This document shows positions 2,878 through 4,837 of a DNA stretch of 20,601 nucleotides, in pieces. Source of the DNA: a virus; IMG/VR virus record IMGVR_UViG_3300032236_000320, positions 1 through 20,601 of that record; one strand, given 5' to 3'. Position 1 is the first letter of the stretch. Each line of letters opens with the position of its first letter. The position numbers and the translations under genes are program-made. The notes beneath the pieces were generated by a model. The model had not been told where the DNA came from and searched no databases. It saw only the letters and a list, made by a program, of their open reading frames with translations.

Positions 2878-3417
2878 TTAAGGAGCGTTACCGCCAACAC
2901 CAAAGCTAGTGCCAGCAGGTGATTGAGTAAATCCAGTTTGCCCTGGCTTAGTATGATCGTGTGTCCAAGGGCTTTCATTCAATGGTCCATAGCAACTAGC
3001 CAAGGTTACACCATTTACCTTTTCAGGCTGAATTTGGCACAAGTATGACCACATATTGCTGATCTGAGTTTGTGGAGTAGCGCCAATTACGAATGAACGG
3101 AAGGCTGCGGGCTGATTAGACCAATCAGGTGCTTGTGGATAGCTTGATTGTTGGCTAAACAATGACCATACAGTACCAGGCTTGGCATCACAAGAACCAT
3201 TCATCAAATCAAGGTCAGCAATAGAATCACCAGTTAATACTGGGCAAGTTGCTACGCCTTCTTGAAAGATTTTATTGCCAATAATCATGGTATTGCCTGT
3301 AGGTTGTGCGCCACTAGCAGCACATAAAGCGTATTGACCATGACAGATGCCTAAAGTATGAGCAACAGAACAGCCAGCCATCAGAATACCTGCCATAAAA
3401 ATCAAAAATTTTTTCAT
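2878..3417 (-). CDS. Putative lipoprotein with six further cysteines
   Basis: The chosen ATG (3417) overlaps the endolysin stop (ATGA) and has AAAGGA upstream. A start 28 codons earlier is possible in frame but would hide the signal peptide within endolysin sequence. The 179-residue product begins MKKFLIFMAGILMAGC, a canonical lipoprotein signal with lipobox LMAGC and Cys16 as the lipidation site; the next residue is Ser, which favours outer-membrane delivery. The mature part has Cys25, 32, 58, 76, 127 and 142, which could form up to three disulfides in the periplasm. It follows the endolysin, but the outer-membrane spanin is encoded elsewhere (inside Rz), so this is a separate lipoprotein. 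Superinfection exclusion or envelope modification is possible; the function is unknown. Confidence 0.75.
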   Translation of the reverse strand: MKKFLIFMAGILMAGCSVAHTLGICHGQYALCAASGAQPTGNTMIIGNKIFQEGVATCPVLTGDSIADLDLMNGSCDAKPGTVWSLFSQQSSYPQAPDWSNQPAAFRSFVIGATPQTQISNMWSYLCQIQPEKVNGVTLASCYGPLNESPWTHDHTKPGQTGFTQSPAGTSFGVGGNAP

Positions 3418-3860
3418 GCCATGTCCTTTAAAAAGAGTAATTCTTCTGCTTGTCTGCGTTTGAGCAATCCAGCCATGTGATGACCAGCAGCCATATCCCA
3501 TTTTAAAAATTCTTGTGCAGCGCCCTCAAAATCACCTGCATTTAATTTTTTAAGCAAAGTAGAGTTGTTTAGATTGCCACATCCGCAATTAAAAGCAAAA
3601 TCCACAAGAGCGTCAAACTCCTCTTGGTTTACTTTAACAGTTAGCTTGGCATTAACATCTGCTTCTGCTCTTTTGACATCTTGAGCCAATAAATCTTCGG
3701 CTTGTTCTAAAGTAATGGTCATTCCTGGGTGAACATCAGGACCTGTATGACCGTATCCAATAGTCCAAGGATCTCCGCCAGTACCAGGATCAGGATAAGC
3801 AATTAATCTGCATCCTTCAAAGCCTTCAGTAAGGTGTAATCCTTCTTTAGAGTATTGCAT
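3414..3860 (-). CDS. GH24 endolysin (T4-type lysozyme, N-acetylmuramidase)
   Basis: The 148-residue enzyme has the complete T4-lysozyme-type catalytic triad: Glu15 in GFEGCRL, Asp24 in AYPDPG and Thr33 in PWTIGYGHT. The Glu-Asp spacing of nine equals that of T4 lysozyme, and its length is close to the family norm. Downstream motifs include FDALVDFAFNCG (about 91-102) and a late LLKRRQAEELLFL helix. It hydrolyses the beta-1,4 bond between N-acetylmuramic acid and N-acetylglucosamine. No N-terminal signal or SAR segment is present, so it should need a holin to reach the wall. It overlaps Rz upstream by one base and the lipoprotein gene downstream by four. Identification is firm. Confidence 0.95.
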   Translation of the reverse strand: MQYSKEGLHLTEGFEGCRLIAYPDPGTGGDPWTIGYGHTGPDVHPGMTITLEQAEDLLAQDVKRAEADVNAKLTVKVNQEEFDALVDFAFNCGCGNLNNSTLLKKLNAGDFEGAAQEFLKWDMAAGHHMAGLLKRRQAEELLFLKDMA

Positions 3861-4261
3861 TATTTAATTCCTACTTGTTCGTTTACCCATTGTTGCAATG
3901 ATACTAATTGCTGGGTTGTTGCTGCACAGTCTTGGGCAACAGATATAAAGTCTTTGGAGATTCCATCAGGGAAGGTGATGGTTTGGCTGGAGGCGGACAC
4001 TGTACCGCTACTGGACTGGCGCATCCTGCCATAATAAGAATTAATGGAATCCAGCTTAGTCTTGTAATCATTAGAGATCCTTTCGGTTTGGGCTTGTTGC
4101 TCTGCTATTACTGCTTTTGTATGTTCCTCGGCTTGTTTGCCAATTGACTCTACTTGAGTTTGATAATTTTCAAAACGCAAATGCTCTACATAAAATCCGC
4201 CAAAAGCAGATATAAAAGCAATTCCAGCGTAAATGTAAAAATTAGTTGGGAGAGGAAACAT
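3860..4261 (-). CDS. Rz: Rz-like inner-membrane spanin (i-spanin)
   Basis: The preferred ATG (4261) follows AAGGA at eight bases' spacing and gives 133 residues; an in-frame start at 4297 would add 12 residues. The protein has one N-terminal membrane segment (about 7-23, FYIYAGIAFISAFGGFY), a long Gln/Glu-rich periplasmic coiled coil (about 27-75) and a C-terminal DCAATTQQLVSLQQWVNEQV segment typical of Rz proteins. Rz spans the periplasm with Rz1 and fuses inner and outer membranes as the last step of lysis. It lies between the putative holin and the endolysin, and a full Rz1 frame is nested inside it. The identification is strongly supported by structure and by the nested partner. Confidence 0.92.
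   Translation of the reverse strand: MFPLPTNFYIYAGIAFISAFGGFYVEHLRFENYQTQVESIGKQAEEHTKAVIAEQQAQTERISNDYKTKLDSINSYYGRMRQSSSGTVSASSQTITFPDGISKDFISVAQDCAATTQQLVSLQQWVNEQVGIK
3904..4071 (-). CDS. Rz1: Rz1-like outer-membrane spanin lipoprotein, nested in Rz
   Basis: In a different frame wholly inside Rz, ATG at 4071 opens 55 codons ending TAG at 3904-3906. GAAAGGA lies six bases upstream, a good ribosome-binding site. The product has a short signal, RLSWIPLILIMAGC, with lipobox IMAGC and Cys17 as the lipidated residue, followed by a Pro-rich stretch (CPPPAKPSPSL, 25-35). These are the hallmarks of Rz1: a small, proline-rich outer-membrane lipoprotein embedded in the Rz gene. The second cysteine, Cys25, could allow a disulfide dimer. 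It pairs with the C-terminal end of Rz to form the spanin complex. Nested spanin pairs are known in lambda and many Gram-negative phages; this one is complete. Confidence 0.92.
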   Translation of the reverse strand: MITRLSWIPLILIMAGCASPVAVQCPPPAKPSPSLMESPKTLYLLPKTVQQQPSN

Positions 4262-4487
4262 CGCCACCATCCTTTTGAGTGGCAGCTTTAGCGCCAATCA
4301 TGACCCCCGAACCGCCAAGAACTGTTCCAAACCCCACCCCAAGTTGTGAGAAATCAATATCGTGACCATGTATAACATGAATGATAGCAATAGCCAGGAA
4401 GCCAAAAAGAGCAGCAACAGCGCAAACCCTAGCAGCACAATAGGTTTCATTATTGTCCTCAGTGAGAATGTCTTTTAGCAATTTCAT
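4242..4487 (-). CDS. Putative holin, two membrane segments
   Basis: This 81-residue protein has two hydrophobic segments, ARVCAVAALFGFLAIAIIHV (about 19-38) and a Gly-rich one, FSQLGVGFGTVLGGSGVMIG (about 46-65), followed by a charged C-terminus (KAATQKDGGD). Size and topology fit a class II-like holin; similar N-ETYCAARV...GFG...GG proteins near endolysins of proteobacterial phages are, from memory, annotated as holins. It directly precedes Rz and the endolysin and overlaps both neighbours (ATGA with the gene before, about 20 bases with Rz). Holins lack reliable motifs, so the call rests on position and topology. Confidence 0.65.
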   Translation of the reverse strand: MKLLKDILTEDNNETYCAARVCAVAALFGFLAIAIIHVIHGHDIDFSQLGVGFGTVLGGSGVMIGAKAATQKDGGDVSSPN

Positions 4488-4837
4488 TTTTTAGCGCTAA
4501 TAGTGTCTTGACCTTTAGTAACGGTGACTTTATCTCCGTCAACGCTTACTGACATTGGAGGTTCTTTTTCAGCAAGATGATCTAAACGCTGAATGAGTTG
4601 TTGAATAACTTGAAACTCTGGTTTTTCTTCTTTTTCAGTAGTGCCAGCAACGCCATTCATCATGTTGATGATAGCCATCAAAGCACCACCAGCCATACCA
4701 ATTACAGCAGCAATCTTGGATGAATCTAAGAAAATGCTTGCTCCTACAGCAATCAAAATAATCGCTGTAATGTAAGCAAGACCATGCTTTCCAATGGATT
4801 TACCAGCTACTTCTTTTGCAGTTTCCAATTGATCCAT
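4484..4837 (-). CDS. Holin-like or antiholin-like membrane protein, 117 residues
   Basis: The preferred ATG (4837) has AAGGA seven bases upstream and lies 10 bases after the previous stop. A longer in-frame start at 5065 would overlap the preceding gene almost entirely with a low-complexity Gln/Arg/Lys-rich shadow and is rejected. The protein has a short amphipathic N-terminus, two hydrophobic segments (21-37, AYITAIILIAVGASIFL, and about 41-63) and a soluble C-terminal domain (64-117) with a helix and a short beta stretch (MSVSVDGDKVTVTKG). Its place before the putative holin makes it an alternative holin, antiholin or membrane modulator. Which of the two neighbours forms the lethal hole cannot be read from sequence. 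Confidence 0.7.
   Translation of the reverse strand: MDQLETAKEVAGKSIGKHGLAYITAIILIAVGASIFLDSSKIAAVIGMAGGALMAIINMMNGVAGTTEKEEKPEFQVIQQLIQRLDHLAEKEPPMSVSVDGDKVTVTKGQDTISAKK

Follow-up and report, generated by a model that had tools for sequence, protein, structure and literature searches.

Does the short open reading frame lying out of frame inside an Rz-like gene of this phage encode a genuine spanin lipoprotein, or is it open by accident? The window, by which we mean the whole 20.6-kb stretch of a virus record analysed here, carries phage structural genes, including one for a major head protein. A preliminary description of its letters had proposed that a complete Rz1 lipoprotein is nested within Rz, as in phage lambda. 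Our analysis supports this reading, and we put the probability that the locus encodes an embedded two-component spanin Rz/Rz1 of the lambda type at about 96%.

The i-spanin gene, Rz, occupies positions 3860 to 4261 on the minus strand (402 nt, 133 residues); its likely start is the ATG at 4261, with AAGGA upstream, and its stop lies at 3860. The o-spanin frame, Rz1, extends over 3904 to 4071 of the same strand, from an ATG at 4071 through 55 codons to a TAG at 3904-3906, and a Shine-Dalgarno-like GAAAGGA (4078-4084, minus strand) ends six bases before the ATG. The frame is contained entirely within Rz, at nucleotides 190 to 358 of 402, in the +1 frame. Its product, MITRLSWIPLILIMAGC followed by ASPVAVQCPPPAKPSPSLMESPKTLYLLPKTVQQQPSN, the second part beginning with Cys17, is a predicted lipoprotein precursor of 55 residues: WIPLILIMAGC, with Arg4 in the n-region, fits the lipoprotein signal pattern and places the predicted lipidated residue at Cys17, after IMAG, with Ala at +2. 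The lipobox (MAG-C, residues 14-17; 4021-4032, minus strand) has a Met at -3, which falls outside the strict [LVI] consensus and inside that of the PROSITE lipoprotein rule. Mature Rz1 has 39 residues, 23% of them Pro. The start, the GAAAGGA, the codon count, the IMAGC ending at Cys17, the Pro-rich mature part, the stop and the containment within Rz had all been given in the preliminary description, which was exact in every detail. Rz1 spans 0.47 to 0.89 of the length of Rz, close to the geometry typical of embedded spanins, about 70% of which have an o-spanin running from 0.4-0.5 to 0.9-1 of the i-spanin length (Kongari et al., 2018; PMC6139136).

A frame of this kind might be open by chance, as a consequence of the residues that Rz encodes and the codons it uses, and the window taken alone leaves some room for that explanation. 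Of 20000 synonymous-codon shuffles of the window's Rz, which keep the Rz protein and the codon counts unchanged, 189 (0.9%) contained a nested lipoprotein ORF of 55 codons or more; for a single sequence this rate is suggestive and lends only moderate support, and hydrophobic out-of-frame ORFs do occur, for instance in the neighboring holin-like gene. As the result for the window alone was not decisive, relatives of Rz were gathered from loci around relatives of Rz, the lysozyme and the holin-like protein in viral contigs and one phage record, and an iterated profile search yielded 140 Rz-like ORFs, 76 of them distinct. Every one of the 76 has a lipobox ORF in the +1 frame and none has one in the +2 frame, and the nested ORF is kept in relatives whose Rz identity is down to about 15%. 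Stop codons or a missing lipobox in the nested frame of relatives, which the preliminary description had named as grounds for rejecting its own proposal, were thus found in none of the 76. Shuffles of the relatives' genes gave a nested lipobox ORF in 298 of 22800 cases (1.3%), a rate that is no independent probability, because the 76 sequences are kin and the lipobox pattern was widened post hoc: the initial scan recovered 68 of the 76, and the pattern as widened after the eight misses had been seen was applied to the shuffles as well. All eight carry a nested lipoprotein with one of the rarer lipoboxes, such as LCSC, CVGC or MQGC.

Consideration of the residues that the two frames encode from shared DNA bears more directly on the chance explanation. 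For 21 sequences of the window's subtype, diverged pairs have a mean Rz1 identity of 0.50, compared with 0.34 over the Rz residues encoded by the shared DNA, and Rz1 identity lies above that of Rz in all diverged pairs (197/197); between the window and the relative L075, for example, identity is 33% in Rz and 57% in Rz1. Among the other subtypes, Rz1 is about as conserved as Rz in type B and somewhat more conserved in type C. Hitch-hiking alone could keep a frame open but could not make it the better conserved of the two, which Rz1 is in the window's subtype. This refutes the chance explanation, which we regard as vanishingly unlikely, and nested Rz1 is a real gene, conserved and under protein-level selection.

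A real gene pair of this architecture could still be something other than a spanin: Rz1 could be a small lipoprotein of another role, for example in superinfection exclusion or envelope stress, nested in the gene of a membrane protein. The short product matches known families weakly enough to accommodate such a role, and the spanin function of the pair is itself a prediction from sequence. Compared with PHROGs, the 55-residue Rz1 has phrog_1267 and phrog_812, both Rz-like spanin, as its two best families of known function; the E-values of 0.3-0.4 (best 0.32) are non-significant, as expected for only 55 residues. Its phage matches by tblastn are weak (E 0.2 to 9), and eight of the ten are to Pseudomonas phages. 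In the two Pseudomonas phages that we examined, the gene holding the match is annotated as either an Rz-like spanin or a putative lysis protein; the match is in its +1 frame, with an LAGC lipobox.

Rz, in contrast, argues against a role outside lysis. It matches two Rz-like spanin families, phrog_2466 (E 6e-4) and phrog_739 (E 1.2e-3), with moderate significance, and a hydrophobic segment at about residues 6-22 forms a predicted N-terminal membrane helix. The structure model has a long helix (residues 6-83), a linker and a second helix (105-130); with a mean pLDDT of 68 and a pTM of 0.26, it suggests with modest confidence a membrane helix continued by a long periplasmic helix, then the linker and a C-terminal helix bearing Cys112. 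The same helix-linker-helix layout has been described for lambda Rz (PMC6139136). Besides the lipidated residue, each protein has a periplasmic cysteine, Cys112 in Rz and Cys25 in Rz1. Conservation of both within the window's subtype, like the embedded geometry, speaks for a spanin; at least one such cysteine is present in 507 of 528 two-component spanins. Matches of Rz to tape measure and DivIVA families in Pfam, and to EsxB in the PDB, were set aside as below curated cut-offs or generic helical.

The surroundings of the pair also weigh against a non-spanin role, as the genes around Rz/Rz1 are a lysis cassette, all on the minus strand. In order of transcription it comprises a membrane protein that weakly matches a holin family (4484-4837; phrog_1350, E 0.0024; start inferred at the ATG at 4837, after AGGA), an 81-residue membrane protein (4242-4487), Rz with nested Rz1, and an endolysin of the phage lysozyme type (3414-3860; PF00959, E 3e-48; phrog_7, E 5e-61). 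The gene for the 81-residue protein, upstream of Rz, overlaps the Rz start by 20 nt, and the start of the endolysin gene overlaps the Rz stop. Family searches with the 81-residue protein gave no match; its size, hydrophobicity and position make it holin-like, a role suggested by synteny. Given these neighbors, together with the PHROG matches, the geometry, the cysteines and the model of Rz, we consider a non-spanin role for the pair very unlikely. The lambda-type reading is borne out by conservation of the nested frame throughout the family, constraint on Rz1 above that on Rz, a typical position and frame, the holin-like and lysozyme synteny, and +1 matches that are weak and coherent.

Two further ORFs on the minus strand were noted near the pair. 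A second lipobox protein, MKKFLIFMAGILMAGC... (2878-3417, about 179 residues, Cys-containing), has a start that overlaps the preceding lysozyme gene and had no match in family searches. Out of frame within the 81-residue holin-like gene lies a very hydrophobic ORF of 50 residues (4298-4450) with AGGA before its ATG. We rejected it as a real nested gene: many relatives with an intact outer frame have it truncated or without its start, and it is therefore probably a by-product of that frame. Matches to AGGA-ATG are no commoner in the window than expected by chance.

Returning to the spanin pair, its action may be outlined by analogy with lambda, where the inner membrane holds Rz, the outer membrane holds lipidated Rz1, and the two membranes fuse once the endolysin has degraded the peptidoglycan (PMC6139136). 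In the window's phage, Rz would lie in the inner membrane, with a membrane helix at its N-terminus and a helical domain in the periplasm; Rz1, from a Shine-Dalgarno sequence of its own, would be translated from the Rz mRNA in the +1 frame. If lambda is a guide, Rz1 would acquire its lipid at Cys17 and reach the outer membrane, and the two proteins would bind end to end across the periplasm. Removal of the peptidoglycan by the holin and lysozyme would leave the Rz/Rz1 complexes free to move, and the freed complexes could then fuse the inner and outer membranes, completing lysis.

The Ala at +2 of Rz1, after the lipidated Cys, fits sorting to the outer membrane under the rule of E. coli, so that a host with an outer membrane is likely, though not proven. 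The preliminary description had held that the nested gene proves that lysis targets an outer membrane, which is too strong for what is an inference from sequence. Searches for the host in genomes gave no match with Rz, and with the lysozyme only distant ones in mixed hosts.

More interesting than nested Rz1 itself is the manner in which the pair appears to have been exchanged. The window carries type A of Rz1, while its closest relatives by holin-like protein and lysozyme differ in type: L122, L010 and L014 (about 90% identity in each protein) have type C, and L096 and L038 (about 85%) have type B. DNA identity between the window and L118 is mostly 0.82-0.98 over the genes upstream and 0.80-0.92 through most of the lysozyme gene, but 0.43-0.63 between about 4200 and 3900. 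The drop in identity confined to this interval between similar flanks, and the differing Rz1 types, suggest block-wise exchange of the spanin pair, with a boundary close to the N-terminus of Rz. Across L118, L122, L010, L014, L096 and L038, the segment corresponding to 3900-4230 (minus strand) of the window has Rz/Rz1 replaced as a unit by two other types, with ELGQPFLPRM or YQVKDSDYL motifs in mature Rz1, between a holin-like gene and a lysozyme gene about 85-90% identical to those of the window. We regard as evenly balanced the broader proposal that, in this freshwater phage group, both spanin frames swap as one indivisible block, in no fewer than three Rz1 types, while the holin and endolysin genes on either side stay near-constant, and the nested frame is the more constrained in one type. 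If true, it would be a natural experiment on the co-evolution of overlapping partners and on the need for particular spanin parts to match. Phages are well known to exchange lysis genes in mosaic fashion, and the Rz/Rz1 blocks are therefore a useful data set and carry no new principle.

Taken as a whole, the identification of Rz/Rz1 is correct and well supported, and the pair is an ordinary instance of the known embedded spanin architecture, which leaves knowledge of phage lysis unchanged. Kongari et al. (2018; PMC6139136) catalogued 182 embedded systems, and the o-spanin coding sequence was absent from the annotation in 196 of 528 systems. The earlier remark that such a gene is easily skipped thus holds as a published general problem, and nothing about it is special to this locus. 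What the locus adds is a verified o-spanin, of a kind usually overlooked by gene callers, together with dozens of diverse relatives; this Rz1 set can be used for better annotation and for studying how overlapping genes evolve.

Comparison with lambda shows the same arrangement of Rz1 wholly within Rz in the +1 frame, a Pro-rich mature o-spanin of about 40 residues (39 here, 40 in lambda), an Rz with an N-terminal membrane helix and two helical segments, and a location with the endolysin gene. Unlike those of lambda, the window's Rz and Rz1 precede the lysozyme gene instead of following it, and the longest proline run in Rz1 is PPP, where lambda has a penta-proline run; direct sequence similarity between the two pairs is not established. 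As in the window, the annotated Rz-like spanin genes in Pseudomonas phages vB_PaeP_Tr60_Ab31 and YA3 contain an ORF nested in +1, there with an LVLAGC lipobox and a QCxxPxPPxxLMxxxP motif, but the alignment is weak (E about 6), Rz is longer and the gene order with respect to the lysozyme differs. Myoviridae sp. cta1H496 (MW202520.1) and ct2os315 (MW202796.1) each have a relative of Rz whose +1 frame carries the window's Rz1 subtype. In MW202796.1 the Rz frame alone is annotated, as hypothetical, and Rz1 is unannotated; in MW202520.1 (10154-10549, corresponding to L008 3001-3396) both genes are unannotated and both frames are intact. The Rz of MW202520.1 has about 30% identity to that of the window, and the pair there likewise has a lysozyme gene downstream.
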